Shown here one piece after another: positions 7,054 through 64,000 of a DNA stretch of 64,000 bases (position 1 is its first letter; each line of letters begins with the position of its first letter). This DNA comes from Rhea pennata (taxonomy: Eukaryota; Chordata; Aves; Rheiformes; Rheidae). The translations under genes and the position numbers were made by a program. The notes under the pieces are model-generated. The model did no database searches and was not told the origin of the DNA. It saw nothing but the letters and a program-made list of their open reading frames with translations. Location: NCBI RefSeq assembly GCF_028389875.1, contig NC_084702.1:57762553-57826552 (forward strand), read 5' to 3'.

Positions 7054-10000
7054 GTAAGTACAATAAGATTTAATTGGGGCTGGGGGAATTGAGTTGCAAA
7101 AGATAGTTAACTGTCTTTTGAAAGAAGTGCTTCTGTTTATGGAGGATGATTGTCAGTGTTTTTAATATTGTACTATATAAAACTTGAAATAAAAAAAACT
7201 TTGTGTTTTTTTTTTTAAAAAAAAGCAACTGTATCACTTCTGTTGGTGACTTGCAAGTTTTAATGCTCACCTGTGTGTAATAGATGAGATCATTTCACTA
7301 GTTACAGCTGCTAATCTACAATTTAGTTTAAACAAATTCAATTGTGTATGTGTGTTGAAATGTGTATATTCACTGGGGAATCCAGGAAGGAGATGAGAAG
7401 GGGGAGAAATTTATGCTTGGGGTGAAATTTGAAAAATGGTAGTGCTTTTAGCCTCTTAACTTTAATGCTGCCTTAAGCTAATTAGTTTGCCAAGCTTTTG
7501 CATCTGTGCTCTGAAGAATGACCACCTTCCATATTTTCAATTAAATACATACTGTATACTTAAATTTGACCCTTGAGGAGAAAGGTCAAGTATATTGTTT
7601 TTCCTCAGTAAACACAAAACTCTGCAAGTTCTGCCATTTCTTTCTTAGAAACAATCAGCCAAAAAAGATCTCTTAGGTATCGCATGAATATTAATTATGG
7701 ACTGTAGTCTTTCTAGGGCTCTGTTGAGTGGGAACCTTGCAACTCTTCCAGCTGTTACGCCTCAGCCATTGACTTATGGAAATGGCAGTCCAGTACATAC
7801 ATCTGCTGCCCCCACATCATTCCGAGGAAGAAAGTAAGTTCTTCAGTATGTGTGTCTGTGTGTATAATTAATTAATCATGATTATAATGTGCGATTTTTT
7901 TTTTTTTTGGTGCAGCTTGACTTTTCATAGAACTTTTAAGAATATTGAATAAAGCCTTTCTGATGAAGTAGGCCACATTCACATGTTGTGGCACTTTAAA
8001 GCATTCGTGTACTTGCTTTTGAGAACTTTAGTCAACATTAGTGATTTAATATGTGTAGCTTTTTTTTTTTTTTTCCAACAGTTGTGGCCTAACAAAACTG
8101 ACTTGTTTTATTTTAATAATGCAGTAGATCCTAGTCTGTGTGCTTGACTATTAGAAGGCTTGTGTCAATACATTGAAAGTTTTGTTGATTTATCAAGTTG
8201 AGAGTGAAATTGCTCCTTCAGTGTTTCACGGGAATCTTGATGTTTTTCTGATGACATACTAGATATTTCTCCTGCTTTTCTTAATTATTTGAAAAATAAA
8301 ACTTCCCATAAGTTCTAGATTCAAGCGTTTGGGGGAGGGATTTTTATGAAAACATGATTTTTCTCCTTTTTGGAAAAAACTTCCTTTGTGCAACAATAAG
8401 AAATTCCACATGCATGTGATTTTATTTTCTCCTAGCATTTTAGAAAAATGATTTTACTATCCCACTTATCAGTTTAGAAATAGTAGTTGATAAAAGTTTG
8501 TAGAATTTTTAATAATTCTGTGAATCAAGTGGTAGGGAGGAAACCTTAAGTAATCCTCTCTTTCAAAGTCTTGCCTGTTCTTCTTCCTGATTTAACAGTT
8601 GAGAGTATAGGAATAGTTAATATATAGTGTTAAGTTATACTTGATTATATAGGTGTCTCTATCTAAAGAAAGTCCTGGTTTCATATGCTCTGCTCTGCAT
8701 ATCTTTTCCCTGAGCAATCTGGCTTAGGAAAGCTATGCTGTGATTCTGTGATTTGCAGTCAACTCTTTAGAGACTCTTTAGTTCTTTAGATCTTGAGTCA
8801 ACTCTTCTTAAAGTATTTTCCCTGAAGATCTGTTCATGTAAGTTCATTTCAGCTAAAATAAGCTGAAACACCTTCATATTTTGATTTAATGTTACATTAT
8901 GAGGTTTTGTTAAGATGGTGGTAGATACTGTTGTTAGTAACTTGTATCAGACAGAAGTAGAAAACTTAAACTGAAATGATGACTTGAGGTCTTGTCAGTT
9001 AAAACTTCAATATTAATCTGTCTGGGACCTCAAGCAATTCTGATGCCAACCTTTAACTACAAGGAATAACTGTTGTTTTATTAATAGTTAATTTGTCCAT
9101 ATATAATACAAACATTTGGATTTCATGCTTTTTAAAAAATGTATGAATATCCCCATACTGGTTAGCTTATATGCAGATACTTAATATACTAACAAAACAT
9201 GAATGTCCTCTTTTATGTTCTTTAGTAGACTGTGGTATTCAACCACTTCACCTTTCAGTACAACTTTTTCTTAATAAAGAGTTTGGATGCCAAGGAGCTG
9301 TCCATAAGATCACTATCTCTTTTAAAATACATACAAATTTCTGTAATTAATGAGTTAATGTAGAGATAAAAGTTTGTTTGAAAGTAAGACATTAGGTTTA
9401 TGACCTACATAGCTTAATAAAATCATTAGTTTGATTTATCAAATGAATAGTGGTTCTTTTTTGCCCAGATTACACATTTTACTGTCTGTACAATCTAAGC
9501 CTACACAGACAAATGCTACATTTTGAATGGCTATTGTGGTAAGTTTTTTTTTTTTTGTTTTTTTTTCTCCCTTCCCCACTGCTGAATTTCTTATTCATCA
9601 CTGGGTATTCAGAACTCACAGAACTTCTCACTGCACTTCTTTTGATTTTAGTTTTAAAAGATATGTAGTCTGTGTATATCTTTAAAAAAAATAAAAAGAA
9701 TATATGATCACAAATGTAGTATGACCAGCATTCATCTTTTCTAGCTATACTGCTGGACTGAACTTGCCATTTGGTTTCAGTTGGTTAATACTCTTGTTAA
9801 GCAGTTGCCTCAATCCACTTCAAGGGTAGCTGCACTTTTGCAGTTGTGTGTTCTCTTGCATTTCCCATTCCAGGTTTATTTCACCTAATATCTAGGATGG
9901 GCACGCCTTTTGATTTTGTAGAATGCTTGGTTTTAGTGAAATAGTCACAGTAATTAATCATTTGTACTGTGTAACAAGTGTACTTCAGTTGTATGTTGGA

Positions 10001-13000
10001 GTTTGCAAGCTAAAGGAATTACTGTCTTGTTTTTTGTAGGAGACTAAGTGAGCAAAATGTTCCATATGAAGTTAAACGGCAGCGATTTCATTCACCTCAT
10101 CACGAAACAACTGTAGTTAACCAAACAGTGCCTTTACCAGAAGCACGTAGATACTCCTTCCCAGGATCCATTCCATCTCCACTGTTTCATGCACATTATG
10201 TACCAGATTTAACTGGATGCGTCCCTCCGTTAAGAGATGCTTCATTTTCAGACCCTATAGAGACCACACTCCCTGTGGCCAAAGATAAGGTAATGCTTAT
10301 CTACGCCTGTGCTTTACATTGTCTTGGTGAGAAGGTGAGACTCTGTGATGCTGTGGGAGACAACAAAAACCTTGGCAGGGTTCTTTGACAGTGTCATGAT
10401 GTCTCTACTGCTGAGCTTCATTTGTAAGGAATAGCAGTGTATCAGTAAATGTAGCTGCCACTATAGTGTTCCCAGTTATGTATAGCCTCTTTGTTCATAT
10501 GTTTGGTTTTGGAGGATTTTTTTTTGTTTGTGTGTGTGTTTTCTCTCTCTTTTTTTTTTTTCCCTCCCCCTTGTTGATTTCAGGAAATCAACCTATCTGA
10601 TCCAGGTTTAGTAGGAATTGGAGTGGTCCATGTGTTGCACGGTTGAGGAGCGGGAGGGGGAAAATCCTGATGAAATAAGCCTGTAATGTGGGAAAAGCTC
10701 ATTCTGAATAAATATGATATGAGGTCTGTAAAGATAAAGATGCTCTCTGCTCCTCTTCAGAAGGAGATAAAAATTAATGTTCATGTATACATATGTAGAA
10801 GAGAGTCTTCTTCAGGTGGACAATGGAATTGGAACTGTTTCTTAAAAAAAAAAAAAAAAAAAACTTGCAGCTAATCATTCTTCATATTTCATCTTGCATC
10901 AACATGATGGAAGGTTTCTTTAGTATTTATAGCATATAGCAATTGCTATAATGAGGAAACAGTTAACACCTGCTTCCACCAAAGATCTGACTACTTCTTT
11001 GATAGTTTGAGTGGGGTTGAAATTAAAAAAAGCTAACTTAAATCAGTTTTCAATCTTTATTTCTCTCCCTATTATAGGTAGTCAAACTAGTGACTTTAAA
11101 GTCAGCGGAAGATACCTGTGGTCTTTCACTGCTTGATTCCTGAAAAGCTGCAGATACTGATGGGGCAAAACTTATTTTCTTAGAATGGATATCTTTTCTA
11201 AGATTGGACCAACTTTAATATTAAAAAACTGCAGGAATCTTTTGTGGGAAGCTGTTAAATAGGAGTTTAAGCAGAATAAAACTCCAAACAAAGGAATAGA
11301 TTATGGAAAACAATGCTGGCATTTAATTTATTTGCTTGTTAATTCAATCTTCTATTTTTTATAGAATTGCACACGTTATAGGAAAGAATGTTTTACTGCC
11401 CTTTATCTTTACTTTTTGAATGTGTGTGTCAAGTTAAGTCAGCAGGTTTTGGAGCTGTTTCAAGCATGTCAGCAACAGACCTGTGATTTGAACAGAAAAG
11501 AACTCTGCAGAACAGAACTCCAGAGGGAAATTCAGCGAATATTTCCACGTATGTTCTGAATTTGACCATTTGGTATCAGTTGGAATGTTCTTCACATTCA
11601 CAGTTCTCCATTCTTCCCAAAGTAAGACATGTCCCATCAGTTCTTTTTCTGTGATTCTCTTGTTACAGAGAGCAGACTCTTTTTGGTTGGATCCTCACTG
11701 AATGGCTTTGGCACTCGTAGCAGTGACGGTGACTTGTGCCTTGTGGTTAAAGAAGAACCAGTAAGTAGTTTAAAAATACAGTTAAAGTCTGTTTGCTTGG
11801 TCCACTCTTTGGAACCTGAGCACTTTGAATTCAGTAACTATTTTAAAAATGCATGTACTTTTATCAGACTTGATTCTAAAATAAGAAACAAATGATCAAA
11901 CCCTTTGATTTAATGTATTTCTGCATTAATAGTAGCTATGAACTGTGGCTCCTGGTGATGTTGCAAATATATGAATTTGACCTTATATTCCTTTTAACCC
12001 TTTGAAAATTAAACATTACATTAACTTCACAAATGGACAAAGCACAGAGTAACAGAATGCTTTAACCAACAACTCTCTAATTCTTTTAGATGCAGGTACA
12101 ACTTTAAATGCTTTTTTTTTTTTTTTCCTTTTAATTCAAATATTTAGATTCTTACCTACCACATTGAAAAAGCCAGACATTTCCATAAGTGCATGTTAAA
12201 TAACTTTCCTCCTTTTCAGAACTGTTTCTGTGGTAAGACTGTTGCATAAAAAGGCAACATTCCACTGACATAAAATTCTATAAGATAATGTAAGAGATTG
12301 TTAGAGGAATAGTAACAGCAAAAGTTTTAGTGTGTGGTCAAAAAAATGAACTTGATAATGCAGACTATCTTAAATATTTCTGTTGAGAGAAAATTTTTAT
12401 ACCTGGAATTTAAGAGAAAAGACATAACCAAAAAGGCAAACAGAGGATGTTTGAGGAAGAATTGAAACATCGTGAATGAAAAGAATTACATTTTTATAAG
12501 TGGGGCTAGATTTCCTTCAGAGTTCTAAGATTTCTGAATGTCTGCAAGTTAATTTGGATCTAAATTATTTTGTGTAGTTTTTCCCAAATTAAATAAATAT
12601 GTAGACTGAGGAATGTGTTGGTATACATGTTTACTTCTTATTACGAGATTTAATAGACTTTACCTTTATTTGAAAAGTAAAGCATCTAGTTATGTAAGGA
12701 TTAAAAAAAAAAAAAGAGGGATGTAACGTATTTATTCTTTAATTTTAATATCGTGTTTCAGGTAAATCAGAAGACTGAAGCAAGGCATATACTCAGCTTA
12801 GTCCAAAAACTCTTCAGTACTAAACTTTGTAAGTTCCAGGCTACAGTGAGGTGCTAAGATTATTGGCAATTCTGGAAATAGTGTTGATGTGCAGTTATAA
12901 TTACTTGTGTACTTGAATGCTGTCTGGTTTCTAATTGTAGCATCTCTTTGCAGAAAAGCTAAACATACTTGGTAACACTTTTTATTTTGTATGATGGAAC

Positions 13001-36946: not shown

Positions 36947-39900
36947 ACACTCTCTGATTTTATTTTGACAGGACTCTTTTGATCCTGCTATGCAGTTGCA
37001 CCTTGTTCATCAAGCCCCATGTACCATTCCTCCTTACCTCTCAAAAAATGAATCAAGTCTTGGAGATTTGCTAATAGGCTTCTTCAAATATTATGCCACA
37101 GAATTTGAGTAAGTATTAAACTCCTTTCAGCATTCTAAAATAGGTAGAACTTTGTTTTTTTTCACTTTGATACATCAAAATTTTAAGTCCATTAAAAAGG
37201 AAAGAATAGAAGCAATGTGAAAGTGGTAACTGACAGAGAGGAAACAAGTGAAAAGAACTGAGGACAGTGGGAATGCTAATATAAAAAGTGTTGTCTAAAG
37301 TCTTTTGATTAGCCAAGCTGCTTAGTCTGTAAAATAACTGCTAAGAGTTAGATAGGTCTGTCCTTCCAAAATAGCCGAATTTCTTTTATATTACACTGTT
37401 TTAAAACTGCAAAGAAAGTGCAAGAAAGATCTACTCCTTAGTTTTAGTTTAAGATATTGCTTATGATCTGGAATTACTTGAACCCTAATAACTGCAGTTG
37501 TTTTCTGTCATCCCAGGTCAGGGGAGATTATTGACCAGATGGCTCCTTCCTTTAACCATAACAGACATGAATATAAGCTATTTTTACTGAGGAATTGTCT
37601 CATATCTATGTGGTTCACTAACCTTGTTGATTTGCTAGAATCTGAGTTTAATTTTGGCATCTGGACTATCTTGTGAAAGAGAAATAGAAGACAAAGGTGT
37701 GAGAGAACCTGAGAAAACCATGGATTATGAACATGTTACCAAATTGTCAGCTGAGAATCTCTTACAAAGATTCCTTGTGTGTATAAAGCATTAGGTGATT
37801 GTTTTAAATAGGATTGTCTAAATATTTGGCTGTTCAGGTCATTGATTCATATGAGTTACTGTCTGTTTTGTTTATATCTACCGTAACTGTTCTCTGGAAG
37901 AAGGACAAAATATGACTGCTGCTGACATTCCTTACCATTTTTTCTAGTGTTCATATTTTACTTTAGTATAAGAAATAATCGTGAAATCCTTGAAAGCAAA
38001 CGTCACTGGGATGTGCACTGCGTGTGGAATTCATAAGTAAAATCTATACGACTTGTGGCAGTTCATGAGCTTTATGCATGCTTTAACCTGATCTTAGGAG
38101 AGAGATTCATATAAAGGGCTTTCCTTTAACAAGCCCTGCAGATAAGAGAATTGTCTTTTCACAGAATCACAGAATGGTTGAAGTTGGAAGGGACCTCTGG
38201 AGATCATCTAGTCCAACTCCCCTGCTCAAGCAGGGTCACCTAAAGCATGTTGCACAGGATTGCATCCAGGCAGGTTTTGAATATCTTCAGAGAAGGAGAC
38301 TCCACAACCTCTCTGGTCAACCTATTCCAGTGCTCTGTCACTCTCAGTGAAGTTTTTCCTTGTATTCAGGTGGAACTTCCTGTGTTTCCATGCTTGTTCT
38401 AAAAGGTTCTGTTGAGTTGCTTGTCTTTTCAGCTATCCAGGTGCTGTTTGCTGTTTGCAACGTCCATATTATAGGACATTGTTGTGTGGCCCTTAAAAGG
38501 ACATCTTCAAGTTCCTAATTTATGTGGGACACTAGATAAATCCTTTGCTGCTCATATGTATAACAAGCTGTTAATCTCATCCTATCAGGAAGTGGTCTAT
38601 TTAGTAAATATTTTTCCATGAGGGAAGAAATTTGTTTTGCCTGTGCGAACTAGCAGGAGAGGTCTTGTCCAATCCCAGGAAAAACGAACCTGACTTGACT
38701 CTCCTTGTTCATGTGTTTGTCAAGGTAGTCAGGAGCAGATTTCTGTGCAAGTTGGGAGCTGGACTCTGTTTTCTGTTGCTTAAAGATTTTTTTTGTCTGC
38801 TGTTAGACATTGAGGATATACTAAGAAGGATGAAAAATGACAGCACTCCAGTATCATTACTTGAACTGATGATAATCCCTGAGTATTATTAGCAATGATC
38901 ATTGTCTAAGGAGAAGGTGGTTATCAGAGGCATGGAGAAGCTTCTGATTAAAACAAAGGCTGAAGAGCTTAAGGGGCTTAGTTTAGGTATAGAAGAGGAT
39001 GGAAAGGGAATCAAAAGGCCTTTGAATACTCTAAAGACGACTGGAATGCAAGTGAAGTTTTGAAGGCTTGGATATGAAAACCCACTAGAGGAAAAATTAG
39101 GATAAGTAGAGAATGACAGTAGGATAATTGCTGAAGTCAAGAGAAAAACATATTTCAACCCTCCCCCCCCCCCCCCAAAAAAAACTGTGAACATATTGCC
39201 AGTTTTTCCAACATTAACTACCTGTTAAATATTTAAACTTTTGACTAGTGATATTATGTTTAAAAAAAGCTATAGAAAAATACTTGTAAAAATTCCTGTG
39301 TTGTTATATAGCTGAAAAGTCATACCAGGAAATGACACACCTAATGCAGCAACTTGCTATTTTTTGCTATGGACATACACAGATGGTGATATTCAAGTAA
39401 ACAGAACAACTCCAGCCTGATAACTTTAAACCCTGTTTGAAAGGAGTAGGGTGCAGATCTCAAAGATATTAGAGTTCCTTAAAATTTTAGGAAAATTGAT
39501 AATTGGATGGAGGAGAGAAACCCAAATTAGTGCCCACACTCAGAAGAAGACAGGCAGAACATGGTGTTTACATATTTTCATGTGTCTTGATAGTCAGCCA
39601 CTGAGAACAAATGTAGTTCCAAGCTATCTGTAGTGTATGTTATCTTTGCTTTGAGGCAGCTGATAGAAACATGTTGGCCAGGATAGAATTGTTATTAGAG
39701 GTGGGAATGAGGATGAGAGTTAAATACATGCGACACAGGACTCTTAGTTCTGCTTTTTGTGGAGCAGTTTTTTTTACTCCTAAACACATAGAATATTTTC
39801 ATTGCTGTAATCAATAATTTTGTCATTCTTTGCTTTTCCTGTAAGACATTTACTAGTATCGTTTTTTATGTGCAGAATTTTTGGGTTTATGTTCAAGGTA

Positions 39901-53831: not shown

Positions 53832-53980
53832 ATGGAGGGGTGCCGTGGCGCCGAGGGCGACGGGGCGTCCGAGACCTCCTCCGTCCTAGAGGATGAAGAA
53901 GAAGAGGAGGAGGAGGAGGAGGAAGAGGAGGAGGAGGAGGAGGCTGTAGATCCCGAGGAAGCAGAGGAGCTGGCTAACAG
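53832..53980 (+). CDS. CMYA5: CMYA5 coding exon 1
   Basis: ATG in a fair context (CGGCATGG). Encodes residues 1-49 plus two bases: MEGCRGAEGDGASETSSV, then 16 consecutive glutamates (residues 22-37), ending EEAEELAN. The donor is AACAG|GTACGG. The acidic character matches the human N terminus while the exact residues differ. In-frame read-through past the donor hits a stop at about 54153, so it is not an alternative exon end of note. Confidence 0.9.
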
Positions 53981-56900
53981 GTACGGGCTCCCCGGGGAGG
54001 CGCGAAGCAGGGCCCCCGGCGAGCGCTCGCCTCTGGGCCCGGTGCGGGCTTGTCGCCCCTTTCTGCTTTCCTCCCTGTCCCCCTCGCTGGCCGCAGCCGC
54101 GGGGCTGGTGTTCGTGGGGGCGATCCTGCTGCCGCAGTGGAGGCTGGTGCGCTGAGCGCCTGCCCTTGGCTCCCCGGAGGCTTTTCTATTTAAAGAGCTG
54201 CCGGCGTGCCAGCTGGGCTGGCGTCGCCCTCCGCTCCTCGCTGTCGGCCGGTTCTTCCTCGCGTATTGCTCTTAGGTACTCTGGAGAGTTGCCTGTCTGT
54301 GAGAAAACAGTCAAATATCGGAATGGTGCGTTTTAATTTGCTGCTCCTGCTGTCCGTCCTTCTTCCCGCTTGTCCCTCCCTCTTCGGTCTCTTCTTTCCC
54401 AAAACAGGAAAAATTTGTTCTAAACCTTCACTGCCGCTGAGGACCAGAATTTGTGTGGCTCGTTTAGGGGCTGAAATGAGGAATATTGCACTTTGCATTT
54501 CATTTTATTTTTTTGAAGTCTCACGCGGAAGCTCTTTGCCGCCCCCGTGTCGCGCTCCCACGAGGAGGAGAACGCGGCGAGGGCGGCAGGCTCGCCGTGG
54601 GGCCTGGGGCCGCGTGTGGGGCCTGGGGCCGCGTGTGGGGCCTGGGGCCGCCTGCAATCCGATGCCTGCGGGCAGCTCCCTCGGCCGTGCCGATGTGGAG
54701 AAGAGGCAGCGAGGCCTGAAACTGCACCCGGGTGTATCGAGTTGCAGGATTTCTTCTGTGTCTCCAGCAAAGCCTATCGGTTTTAAGCAGATCCTGCAGA
54801 AAGAGCCAAAAGCCGTAATGCTGATGTTTTTCTTAAGAAATTTGGGTCCTGCAGTTTCTATAACCTGAGTGCTGCGGAGCTGTCCTCTATTTACACCCCT
54901 CTGAGCGTGTGACACTTCGAAGCTGTTTCTAGCTGTCCCGATCTTTGTCGCGAGAGTTAAGAGGGCAGAAAGGAGGTGGTGGGACTCTGCACATCCTAAA
55001 CCATCCTGAGAGCTGTGGGAAGGGAAATGGAGGCCAGGACCCTAGGGAAACGCCCTCGCGGTGAGAAGGAAGAGCTAGTTTTCCAGGGATAGGGGTGGAC
55101 GCCCCTAAAAGCCGATTTTCTTCTGAGAGATGTTGCTCTTCTCAGCAGCCTCCTGGCAGAGGAGGGACTACATAACCAAAAAGCTCGAATGGCACACGTG
55201 TAACAGTAACCAGACAAAACCCAACTGCAGCCGATGGAAAGGAGTCGCTCGTTGCAGACAGTTAAAACACAGTCAATCAACTAGATATTTTTAACGCGAC
55301 CTGCAGTTAAATAGCAAATACTACTATTCACATTTAACACCCAGGTAGGAATGTATAACATCTCCCTTTGAGGGTGCACTTACCATCGCAGTCAGCTCTG
55401 TGAGGGCGGCTTTTATTTGGGGTCTGCAGACCCCCTGCCTGGGCCTTGCTCGGGCTGGGAGCCGCCGCAGCGCAGGGCCGGGCCTCGCAGCGCAGCGACG
55501 TTAAATTTGGTGCTTGACTGAATCGCAGCAATCCTTCCCTTCAGCTCTTGGCATTGCGAAGAACCGCACTGTTCGTTCTCCATCCTTGCTCAGTTTGAAA
55601 ATAAGATAGCTCAGAGTTTAGGGAGGCTTTGAAGCAGCTGTGCTCTGTGGTAACTGAGTATATTTAACGAGGCCGTACTACTGAACTTTGATTAGTTTAA
55701 TTAGTCTAACGAAGATGTAAAATTTTGAGTTTTGGCACAGATACAGAAGCAGTACTGAGAACTCAGAAAAAGCTTATCGACGTTAAATAAAACTGATTCT
55801 TTAACGCTTACGTTTTGCGGCCGTCAGCACGGCTGCTGCGGTTCGGGTCCGCCCGACGCCGACGGGCCGCGCAGAGCCGAGGGAGCGCTGGCTGGGTCGG
55901 GAGAGCAGGGCCGAGCCCCGAGGACCTTCTCCTTCAGTCTCTAACCTAATTATTGCTTGATAAACACGCTTTTAAGCCCCGCCACGGAACAAAATTTCTG
56001 TGGTGGTTTGAAAATACATCTTAGAGGAGACGTGGCCAGGACCTAAACTTGGCTGAAGACAGTCCGTGCTGGCCCTGATGTCACTGGGTTATTTTTAAGA
56101 CCTCCGAGCTGCCTGCAGCTTTGCTGTTTCTGTTCTCCCCGAACAGCACCTGATTCTGCAGTGCGGCGCCAGCAGAAAACTGCTCACTGCCTCCTTCGAT
56201 TTCCACTCAAATAGATGCAATCTCTGTCAAGCACGCTAAATATTCCCACTCGTGTTTTACAAAGGCACAGCGGCCGGCGCAAGGCCAGCAAGCGCCGGCG
56301 GGGCCGGCTCAGAGGAGCCTCCCGGAGGGGCCCCGCGACGCGGCTGCCGGAGCCCAGGGCCGGCCGGCTCCGCCGCTGCCCCGTCCCCCTGCGCGGCTGG
56401 GGCGCTTCCAGCTGAGGAGGTGCCTTCCTCTAGGAAACCTGCTGCAGCCTGGGGGTTTCCCTTGAGTGTGCTTGAAAAACAAAAGAAAGAAGAAAAGCTG
56501 CAGCGGCACTTACAGCTTTTACAATATCTGCCCATAAAAATTGGAAAACCTGGGGATTGGCATCTTTATTAATCTTTCCGATGTAATCTTTAAATCGTTG
56601 TGCGTTTTCTAACACAGGCTTTTCGTGCAAGCGGCGAGACTGACAGGCGGTGTCGGAACGGGTTACGAGGGTGGAATAAGGCGCCGCATCCTTGTCCGCG
56701 CAAGTAACCCCCGCGACGCTCGGGGGCTGCGCAGCAGGCTCGGGTGTTTGGGCGCTTTCCTGCGGGAGGCCGTCGCCTTGACCGGTGTCTGTTGTTTCTA
56801 GTGCCACGTAGAATTAATCGTTTAAATAGTGAAAATATTTTGAAGGGATGTGTTGTATCTTTTTAGGAAAATAACAGACATGAGCATGGAGTTAAAGACT

Positions 56901-59900: not shown

Positions 59901-62900
59901 ATTTTACTACAATAATTTGATTTATTTGTTCTGTTTTGTTTTTTAGTTTAAAGGATCTGATCCAGAATGAAGATGTGAAACCCAAGCTGCAATACATCAT
60001 GACTAACCCTTCCTTTTCTATGGTAACAGTTCAAAGTGAAGATAGTGGAATAACCTGGGAAACCAGCTCAAGCAGATGTTCTACTCCCTGGGCCTCAGAA
60101 ACTAGTACAACTTCTGATCTTTATAGTATGGAAAGTTCACCAGTAGGTTCTCCTCCAGGAAAAGTTATCTTTATTATGGATGAAGGCAAGATTATTCGGA
60201 AAAGGAAGCGTAAACCTTCAAGTAGGGCGATGATGCCTACAAATCTGAAGAGAGGCCAGGGCAATAAAAAACGTGACTTTTCTGGAATGCAGAGACAAGA
60301 ACCAAGAACTGTTCTAGCAGATGTGCAGGGCTCAGTGTTAAATGTTGAACAAATGGATGCACAAGATACAGATGAGGAAATGTTAGAAGACAAAGAAGAT
60401 TTGGAGAACATTGCAGAAGAACCAGTAAAACGTGCTCCAATAAGATCGATTTTTCGAGAAAACAAACTGAGAAAAGTAGGGCCAATCCTTGGAGGACCAG
60501 TAAAAGCTAGAATCCAGCTGTTCAATTCAATTTTTGGAGGAACTGGTCCCTCCCCTGAAACACTAGAAAAAACTGGAATCCAGAGGTCTAGTTCAATTTC
60601 AGGAGAATCTGAACATTCTCTTGAAACATCAGTAAGAGAAAGATTGCAGAAGTTCAGTTCATTTTCAGAAGGAACACGTCCAAAACCTTTCCATAAAGCA
60701 AGAAGTAGAAATCTTGAAACACCATCAGAGAGAAGAAAAGAGCAAAGACGGCAACTCACGTCACAAACAAATCAAAGCTATTCGTCACCTACAGTGCCTC
60801 TTGAAAAACGGCTTCCTAATAGAGATGACATTTCATCTCAAAATATTAAACCTGTTAAGACGAAAAATAAACCTAGCACATTTTCAAACTCTGGTGCAGA
60901 AATAACTCTACAGCGTGAAGAAATAAAGGAAAGCCAATCTCTATTTGAGACTCCAAGTAAGATGTCGAGACAGTCACTGGAGTCCTGCCTTCCTGAAGAG
61001 GCAACGAAGCAGCAAAGTTACGCATACTCCCCTGAGGCCAAAAGAGCAATGACACAGCAGTCAATGTCTGTTCCACTAGATCCTGGTGATAAACCAGAGA
61101 AACAAGTGACGCTTCTTTCAGCTGAGACTCCAAACCAGAAACCAGACCGATCACTGCTGACTGCACCAGGTCTTCTGGCTGAACCAAAGGAGCAGGAAAT
61201 TCATCCCCAGTCTGTTCCAACAGGTTCTGTTCATGAATTAGACGGGCAAGCTCCCCAAACTGTTTTCCCTACGTCAACAGCATCTGTGTCAGAACATCCT
61301 GAGAAAGAAGTACAGAAGTCAGCAATTCAGTCTTACTTACCTTGTGCTCCATCAGCTAAATCCAAATATTCCACTCTATCAGAAACAAAACAGGAGGATG
61401 AGATTCCTCATTCATTGAAAACTGCGCAGTCAGAACCTGAACATGTGTTTTTATCGCATTCTATAGACGAAGCAGAGAAGCAAGAAACTCAGTGTCACTC
61501 ATCAGTAACTGCACAGTCAGAAATTGAGCATTCAGCTTTACTGTATTCTGTTAAAAAAACAGAGGAACAAAAGACTCCAGTACCAGAGACCCCAAATGTT
61601 CATTTAGAGAAGCAAAGCATTCAGACTCATTCCAAAACTACTCAGCTGGAGTATGAAAGACAAGATTTTCCTGCCTTTATTCAGGAAGTAGAGGAGCAGG
61701 AAACTAAACTGTATTCACATATTCCTGAAAAAATAGAGTCTAAATATTTTGGCATTTCATATCCGGTTCAGACAGAAACACAGGAAACTCAGAAATTTTC
61801 ACCTGTAAATACAGCAGTAGATTTGGATCACCCCAGTATTTCTATTCAAAAAAACAAACAAACAGAGAGTATACAACTGGAAATGGAACATGCAGATTTC
61901 TCATATAGCGGTGAAGTAACTGAGGAATCAGTGAGAACACAGATGGAAACAGAGTATCCAGACTTCTCTTTTTCCAAAGAAACAGAGGACTTGGAGAGTG
62001 CACAGCCGGAGATGGAGCATCCAGATTTCTCATATTCCAGGGAGAAAACAGAGGACTCGGAGAGTGCACAGCCAGAGATGGAGCATCCAGATTTCTCATA
62101 TTCCAGGGAGAAAACAGAGGACTCGGAGGGTGCACAGCCAGAGATGGAGCATCCAGATTTCTCATATTCCAGGGAGAAAACAGAGGACTCGGAGGGTGCA
62201 CAGCCAGAGATGGAGCATCCAGATTTCTCATATTCCAGGGAGAAAACAGAGGACTCGGAGAGTGCACAGCCAGAGATGGAGCATCCAGATTTCTCATTTT
62301 CCAGGGAGAAAACAGAGGACTTGGAGAGTGCACAGCTGGAGATGGAGCATCCAGATTTCTCATATTCCAGGGAGAAAACAGAGGACTCGGAGAGTGCACA
62401 GCTGGAGATGGAGCATCCAGATTTCTCATATTTCAGGGAAAAAACAGAGGACTCGGAGAGTGCACAGCCGGAGATGGAGCATCCAGATTTCTCATATTCC
62501 AGGGAGAAAACAGAGGACTCGGAGAGTGCACAGCCGGAGATGGAGCATCCAGATTTCTCATATTCCAGGGAGAAAACAGAGGACTCGGAGAGTGCACAGC
62601 TAGAGATGGAGCATCCAGATTTCTCATATTCCCGGGAAAAAACAGTTGAATCAGAGGGTACACAGCCAGAGGTGGAGCATCTAGATTCTTCGTATTTCAG
62701 AGAAGAAAGAGAGGAATCAGAGAGTGCACAACTGGAGACTGAGCATCTGGACTTCTCCTTTTCCAAGGAAAAAACAGAGGAATTGCAGGGTGCACCACTG
62801 GAGATTGAGCATGCAGACTTCTTGCATTCCAAGGAAGAAAAGGTGGCATCAGAGGGTACAGAACTGGATAGAGAACATCTAGATTTCTTATATACAGGGA

Positions 62901-64000
62901 AAGAAACAGAAGAACTGCAGAGTGCCCAGCTGGAGAAGAGTCATCCATCTTTCTCATATTCCAGGAAAGAAATAGTGGCATCAGAGAGTGCACAGCTGGA
63001 CACAGGGCATCCAGATTTCTCATATGCAAGGAAAGAAACAGAAGATTTGCAAAGTCCTCCACTGGAGGAGAAGCATCCAGATTTCTCAAGTGCAAGAGAA
63101 GAAATGGGGAAATCAGAGGATGCACAGCAGGAGAGAAAGAATCTACATTTTTCATCTTCCAGAGAAGAAATAGAGAAACTGGAGAGTACACAACTGGGGA
63201 CTGAGCATCTGGACTTTCCCAGGGAAGAAACAGAGGAATTGCAGAGTGCACCACTGGAGATGGAGCATGCAGACTTCTTGCATTCCAAGGAAGAAATGAT
63301 GGCATCAGGGAGTGCACAACTGGACACAGAGCTTCCAGATTTCTCACATCCCAGGGAGGAAATAGTGGAATTGGCAAGTGCACAGCTAGACATGGAGCCT
63401 CCAGCTTTCCCATATTCCAGGGAAGAAACAGAGAAATCAGGCCATGCGCAGCTAGAGAGGGAGCATCCAGCTTTCTCATATTCCAGGGAAGAAATAGTGG
63501 AATCAGGGAATACACAGGTGGAAACCAAGCATCTGGAATTCTGTTTTTCCAGGGAAGAAACAGGGAAACAGAAATATGTTCCTTTGGAACTGGAACACTC
63601 AAAGTTCCCATATTCTCACAAAGAAGCAGAGCAACAAGAAACAGCACAGCTCGTGCTGGATCCTTCAGACTTATATTCAGTGGAAGAAGAGAAAGAAAAC
63701 ACTACAGAACTTGAATTGGTGTATGCATCTGATATATCTGATTCGACTGGAAGAGCTGAGGCACAGCAAACTGGGTACTTGGGGTCAGAACATTCAGATT
63801 TACCATATCCTACAAATAAAAGAAAGCAGCAAGAAATGGCACAAGTAGATTCGGACAATTCTCATTTGTCGTATTTTGGTGTCAAAGTTGAATACCCACA
63901 GTCTGCGCAGCAGGATTCACAGCTGTATAGAGATAAGCTGTATTCCCTTGACAAGGCAGGGAAAGAAGAAACTCGTCAACTGCGGTCAGAGCATGCAGTT
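53832..64000 (+). CDS. CMYA5: CMYA5 (myospryn), N-terminal part, runs off the window
   Basis: Exon 1 (149 nt) joins exon 2 to give 1401 residues in the window with no stop, and the frame is open at base 64000. The junction region YIMTNPSFSMVTVQSEDSG and the following TWETSSSRCSTPWASE match vertebrate myospryn strongly. Myospryn (also called TRIM76) is a giant muscle protein. From the literature, it anchors protein kinase A, binds dysbindin, desmin and alpha-actinin, and sits at costameres and the sarcomere edge. Its C-terminal coiled coil, FN3 and SPRY domains lie beyond the window. Seen here: a poly-glutamate N terminus, a conserved acidic block, a basic cluster (RKRKRKPSSR), a long disordered charged region and a 22-residue tandem repeat array (residues about 689-1298). 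It is intact with no frameshift. Confidence 0.96.
53895..53942 (+). repeat. CMYA5: GAR trinucleotide repeat encoding Glu16
   Basis: Sixteen GAA/GAG codons in a row. Interruptions by GAA at the start and in the middle suggest moderate stability. Confidence 0.95.
54597..54653 (+). repeat. 19-bp G-rich minisatellite, three copies
   Basis: GTGGGGCCTGGGGCCGCGT is repeated three times head to tail, with one change at the end of the third copy. The regularly spaced G4 runs could fold as a G-quadruplex on the + strand. Confidence 0.95.
56260..56420. other. Secondary CpG-rich cluster in CMYA5 intron 1
   Basis: A compact CpG-dense stretch about 2.4 kb downstream of the first exon. It may be an intronic enhancer, an alternative promoter or an extension of the main island; the sequence alone does not decide. 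Confidence 0.45.
59947..64000 (+). CDS. CMYA5: CMYA5 giant coding exon 2 (partial)
   Basis: Acceptor TTGTTTTTTAG. The exon completes codon 50 (Ser) and continues SLKDLIQNEDVKPKLQ. The first about 60 residues are strongly conserved. Then comes GKVIFIMDEGKIIRKRKRK (near residues 120-140), in which KVIF fits the protein phosphatase 1 docking pattern and RKRKRK looks like a nuclear localisation signal. KLRKVGPILGGPVKARIQLF (near residues 225-245) is another conserved-looking patch. The remainder is acidic, Ser/Thr/Gln-rich and predicted disordered by composition. From residue about 689 the 22-residue repeats begin. A single exon of more than 4 kb without a stop is typical of this gene. Confidence 0.97.
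61862..63691 (+). repeat. CMYA5: In-frame 66-bp tandem repeat array (22-residue units)
   Basis: About 28 units lie within CMYA5 exon 2. Ten consecutive units at 61982-62641 are almost identical, with exact 66-bp spacing (starts at 61982, 62048, 62114 and so on). Each carries the core EHPDFSYS flanked by an acidic T-E-D-S-E block and a basic R-E-K end. Two diverged short units precede them (57 and 63 bp). About 16 progressively diverged units follow, one with a 6-bp deletion (unit at 63170). The acidic Ser/Thr block resembles casein kinase 2 sites. All indels are multiples of three, showing selection on the frame. Confidence 0.95.

Follow-up and report, generated by a model that had tools for sequence, protein, structure and literature searches.

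The 64,000-nucleotide stretch of Rhea pennata contig NC_084702.1 from position 57,762,553 to 57,826,552 (the window) carries a relatively young coding minisatellite inside an older repeat field, in what its sequence identifies as exon 2 of CMYA5 (myospryn), and adds to the known class of coding minisatellites. The array is tandem and in phase, its unit falls within 10-100 bp, and it lies within a protein-coding frame. We consider it probable that this is an old field in which a coding minisatellite was amplified in tandem at a young date, within a weakly constrained, disordered spacer of the protein.

A young tract in an old repeat field

Parsed in frame with the long open reading frame at 59921-64000, the field consists of 27 units (u1 to u27; Table 1). 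Twenty-five are 66 bp long, and the two short ones, u2 (63 bp, 3 bp missing) and u21 (60 bp, 6 bp missing), both stay in frame. The full unit is a 22-residue acidic repeat with a consensus of about SAQLEMEHPDFSYSREETEESE. All 27 units scored between 28.4 and 45.9 bits against a unit profile built from 19 of them, those 19 matching by construction. Tandem Repeats Finder reported the field as one period-66 array of 26.0 copies at 61865-63571.

Within this field the initial annotation had described ten near-identical 66-bp coding copies at 61982-62641, and they are there. With copies set at 61982 + 66k (k = 0-9), the register of that annotation, only 8 of the 66 columns vary among the ten in-frame copies and pairs differ at 0-5 bases (mean 2.69), while the three copies directly 3' of the tract differ from the ten at 13-18 bases. 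Identity at a lag of 66 reached 96.8% in the best 594 nt of the exon, whereas none of 1000 codon shuffles exceeded 37.7%; the ten-copy array is therefore real and far above chance. Lag-66 mismatches crowd the sequence up to 61979, become rare from there to about 62567 and are frequent once more past about 62580. Because such a scan compares two copies, this places the 3' end of the tract at about 62641, where it had first been set. In units, the tract begins 15 bases before the end of u2 and takes in the first 51 of the 66 bases of u12.

The amino acid switches named at the outset, Ser/Gly at codon 1, Pro/Leu at codon 4 and Tyr/Phe at codon 13, are real, and codon 14 (Ser/Phe) and codon 21 (Ser/Leu) switch as well. 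Codon 4 takes the forms CCG, CCA, CTG and CTA, CpG variants included, and codon 21 the forms TCG and TTG, also a CpG variant. The ten copies make up 8 variant types, the only alike copies in the 61982 register being the third and fourth and the eighth and ninth.

The repeat also opens other frames. On the minus strand a frame of 364 aa (61846-62940) is open across the entire tract, and both other forward frames are open over most of it (61924-62649 and 61935-62603), because a stop-free 66-bp unit is repeated.

The setting of the tract was described less accurately. It had been placed in the middle of the field, and it lies near the 5' edge, preceded only by u1 and u2 and followed by the rest of u12 and 15 more units. 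There are indeed units on both sides, as claimed, but lopsidedly so, two in-phase units standing 5' against 15 whole old units 3'. The claim that these flanking units are strongly diverged holds in general but not throughout, as u15 matches u22 at all but 5 of 66 bases. Outside the 66-bp phase, about 300 bp further upstream of the field, where copies are not at 66-bp spacing, lies a degenerate relative of the unit. It scored 9.1 bits against the profile, whereas 100 shuffles of the left flank gave no more than 4.4. In the right flank past the field the unit profile scored at best 0.3 bits, a figure without a shuffle control.

Relative age and origin of the tract

The ten copies have a mean Jukes-Cantor divergence of 0.042 and the 14 full-length old units of u12-u26 one of 0.41, with identities of 95.9% and about 68%, respectively. 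The tract is therefore roughly ten times less diverged, and the minisatellite is young relative to its neighbours, as the initial annotation had proposed. If avian neutral sites change at about 2e-9 per site per year, the tract would be no older than roughly ten million years, a figure that copy exchange would distort.

These observations are consistent with a simple history. A field of the 22-residue acidic repeat would have decayed through substitutions and in-frame insertions and deletions. One unit close to the 5' edge, ending like u2, would then have multiplied in tandem to ten copies through replication slippage or unequal exchange, and a few mutations would have followed, several of them at CpG codons. 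Neighbouring copies tend to be alike, if weakly (adjacent-distance sum 19 against a permuted mean of 24.2, P = 0.051), which is what local tandem duplication predicts. As the unit is 66 bp long, changes in copy number leave the frame intact, each adding or removing 22 residues, and the array may differ in copy number between animals.

It seems rather unlikely that the ten copies are instead old and have been kept alike by ongoing gene conversion or exchange (concerted evolution) with no recent expansion. In the unit register u3, u10 and u11 are identical and not all adjacent, which fits such exchange, but all three could represent the founder type. In the four-gamete test the ten copies conflict at three column pairs, which would also fit exchange: 11-26, 26-27 and 27-63, each including column 26 or 27 of codon 4, which stands in a CpG context in some copies; among the remaining variable columns there were zero conflicts. 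As the conflicts are confined to this CpG codon, repeated mutation is likely and can account for them. Gene conversion, offered by the initial annotation beside expansion, is thus not required, and we rejected it as a proven cause. A single genome cannot tell turnover from expansion.

It is very unlikely that the tract is an assembly artefact, a short array over-extended or a longer one collapsed: its longest exact repeats (at least 120 bp and less than 150 bp, among the lengths tested) are hard for short reads, but 8 variant types among ten copies are unlike the strict identity of a duplicated contig end, and the reading frame is intact.

The diverged part of the field contains a second duplication event, older than the tract. 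A block of about 242 bp is present twice (Table 1), with u15 and u22, the closely similar pair noted above, 456 bp apart. The signal at a lag of seven units has P = 0.003 in u14-u23 and P = 0.012 in u12-u26; seven lags were tried, and the unit ranges were picked after inspection. There is also a hint, no stronger, that the old field descends from a 132-bp dimer. It comes from the unit tree, from codon 21, where TCA alternates with mostly TTG or CTG in u12-u26 (62591-63574; 11 switches of 14, P = 0.051, the label picked after inspection), and from an identity over 62657-63184 of 0.702 at a lag of 132 against 0.658 at a lag of 66. As a higher-order unit the dimer failed a parity test on units (P = 0.71 in u12-u26 and 0.77 in u14-u23), and we rejected it.

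Composition and constraint of the unit

The nine in-register core units, u3-u11, hold 63 acidic and 18 basic residues among 198, giving a net charge of -0.23 per residue and a charged fraction of 0.41, so that the repeat had rightly been called acidic. It had also been called elastic, and nothing in the analysis shows elasticity. Mean hydropathy of these units is 0.304, on the disordered side of the charge-hydropathy boundary at 0.495, and their composition suggests that they are disordered.

Variability at codon positions 1, 2 and 3 of the 14 old units is 0.278, 0.343 and 0.329, and the bootstrap interval for a third-position excess runs from -0.08 to 0.12. Strong purifying selection on the unit is thus unsupported, third positions being no more variable than the others. 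The uncorrected ratio of nonsynonymous to synonymous differences (pN/pS) comes to 0.44 for 36 pairs of core units and to 0.67 for 78 pairs of old units. Taken together, the third-position counts and pN/pS make most residues look weakly constrained, although rate methods are doubtful here; a study of Prdm9 finds tree-type and rate methods doubtful for repeats under concerted evolution (PMC3890296).

The unit might instead be a multivalent docking or phosphorylation motif with the core EHPDFSYS, its copy number raised by selection for avidity, but we think this unlikely. Among 19 units (u1-u3 and u12-u27, which are not independent), Phe at position 11 is retained in 18 (binomial P = 0.002, or 0.045 corrected for 22 positions), and His8 and Glu16 in 15 each. 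A degenerate related unit outside the phased field would fit a selected motif too. Against it, the third-position excess is absent overall, and neither the exon-2 frame nor the array matched a Pfam family (E up to 1) or a credible solved relative. Any binding is putative. In the PDB, also up to E = 1, there were two matches, to C-Mpl binding protein and La-related protein 4 (E = 0.091 and 0.27), at frame residues 1202-1252, which we regard as chance.

Some of these observations count against a young amplification in a weakly constrained spacer. The retention of Phe11 and His8 hints that the unit is a motif under selection and not simply a spacer, and pN/pS is below 1 in both the core and the old units. 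The CpG content of the tract (12 observed against 40 expected, with 2 against 50 in 62642-63640) fits its youth, but the contrast is a weaker sign of youth than it appears, because the 12 CpGs are just three sites, present 8, 3 and 1 times across the copies.

The array as a probable spacer

According to a study in mouse (PMC9023524), CMYA5 anchors junctional sarcoplasmic reticulum at Z-lines, its N-terminus is poorly conserved outside residues 78-319, and in cardiomyocytes a Z-line marker co-localises with fragments 1-450 and 1-1200. By residue numbering alone, array residues 691-1281 fall past the conserved stretch. A disordered acidic spacer of weakly constrained length is thus the simplest reading of the array and, judged by its composition and position, the most likely one. 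The amplification would then have lengthened a negatively charged, intrinsically disordered spacer leading from the N-terminal Z-line-targeting region to the C-terminal TRIM-like domains. Ten units make 220 residues, about 79 nm fully stretched or, by plain arithmetic, a random coil with a radius of gyration of about 4.9 nm.

One could go further and suppose that avian myospryn is a fast-evolving, length-polymorphic acidic tether, in which copy number tunes the reach from the Z-line anchor to the C-terminus that binds the sarcoplasmic reticulum, so that the dyad geometry of heart or flight muscle varies between birds through a coding minisatellite. We would give this joint claim very little credence. 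If copy number does vary, CMYA5, which positions junctional sarcoplasmic reticulum at Z-lines (PMC9023524), would contain a tether of naturally varying length, and birds would supply natural length variants for testing the spacer model. If it is constant, the array would exemplify how a repeat can expand locally in a disordered exon under weak constraint. The growth of the repeat is real but ordinary, and its interest is modest unless copy number turns out to vary with function.

Comparison with known systems

Human myospryn has degenerate SEHSxLS-type repeats and is not known to have a near-identical 66-bp array. The likeness to mammalian myospryn is one of gene, exon (exon 2) and a low complexity repeat region (PMC5524797). 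In that paper, Cmya5 exon 2 is 9.3 kb and a large N-terminal part of myospryn has a 'low complexity repeat region'. As this is already in print, repeats in this region are not in themselves new. A bird CMYA5 array did not turn up among the titles and abstract openings listed, subscription papers, including the original description of the repeat region, lying outside that search.

The zinc-finger minisatellite of Prdm9 is also an in-frame coding tandem unit, and its copies turn over by duplication, deletion and conversion (PMC3890296). Each Prdm9 unit is a zinc finger whose DNA-contact residues vary, whereas the CMYA5 unit appears disordered. Variation in repeat number has been reported in Prdm9 (PMC3890296), whereas the CMYA5 array is known here from one genome, and nothing here shows site-specific positive selection on the CMYA5 unit. 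Spider silk of Argiope offers a similar case, a single coding gene whose tandem repeats have been homogenised (PMC3933166); the CMYA5 array differs from it in being a short acidic unit in a muscle scaffold.

Gene identity and other features of the window

Table 1. Features of the repeat field, the CMYA5 gene and its neighbour, in positions of the window
Feature	Position	Strand	Description
Repeat field	61868..63640	+	27 units, 591 aa, residues 691-1281 of the predicted protein
Older units 5' of the tract	61868..61981	+	u1 and most of u2
Young homogeneous tract	61982..62641	+	ten 66-bp copies, mean pairwise identity 95.9%
Old diverged units 3' of the tract	62642..63640	+	last 15 bases of u12, then u13 to u27
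Older duplicated block, copy 1	62676..62917	+	centred on u14-u15; local alignment to 63138-63373
Older duplicated block, copy 2	63138..63373	+	centred on u21-u22
Degenerate unit relative	61510..61566	+	AQSEIEHSALLYSVKKTEEQ; outside the 66-bp phase; family D2, profile match
CMYA5 coding exon 1 (predicted)	53832..53980	+	49 codons + 2 nt, ATG start MEGCRGAEGDGASETSSVLEDEEEE, poly-glutamate tract, GT donor 53981-53982
CMYA5 giant exon 2 (predicted)	59947..64000	+	at least 4054 bp, continues past the window end
TENT2/GLD2 poly(A) polymerase exon	11662..11769 (ends approximate)	+	upstream, synteny anchor

The gene that holds the array is, as its sequence and setting indicate, CMYA5, in agreement with the initial annotation. 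Two marks of this gene are present, a small exon 1 followed by a giant exon 2, and GLD2 upstream. Exon 2 is preceded by a pyrimidine-rich stretch and an AG acceptor at 59945-59946, and the two exons, joined as predicted splicing would have them, form one stop-free frame of 1401 codons up to the window end. The N-terminal block of exon 2, NPSFSMVTVQSEDSGITWET, and its start, NPSFSMVTVQSEDSGITWETSSSRCSTPWASE, look like those of myospryn. The upstream exon, on the same strand, matched Poly(A) RNA polymerase GLD2 (PDB 6lbk; phmmer E = 6.4e-14), and GLD2 (TENT2) is presumably the neighbour of CMYA5. The C-terminal domains of myospryn, BBOX', BBC, two FN3 and SPRY, lie past the window end, and in birds CMYA5 is Z-linked.

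Searches for relatives beyond vertebrates confirmed none of 47 pattern matches of the repeat in a prokaryote contig collection and none of 14 of the exon-2 N-terminus in a viral one, as expected of a vertebrate gene. Rfam gave no match at gathering score within the window. CMYA5 was a candidate, called putative by the authors, in a single-population selection scan of the Xupu goose (PMC13023516), and the passages of that paper on goose CMYA5 make no mention of repeats.

Other repeats were seen in and around the gene. Exon 1 has a GAG/GAA run encoding 16 consecutive glutamates (53889-53943), a second potentially length-variable coding repeat in CMYA5. In the predicted intron 1, a GC-rich 19-bp tandem repeat at 54597-54651 has 2.9 copies with 100% matches. 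At 38160-38400 on the minus strand lies what looks like the 3' end of a CR1-like retroposon, terminating in ATTCTGTGATTCTGTG; its end motif is at 38160-38175, and a match with one mismatch occurs at 8735-8750. Both are in keeping with DNA from a bird or another sauropsid.
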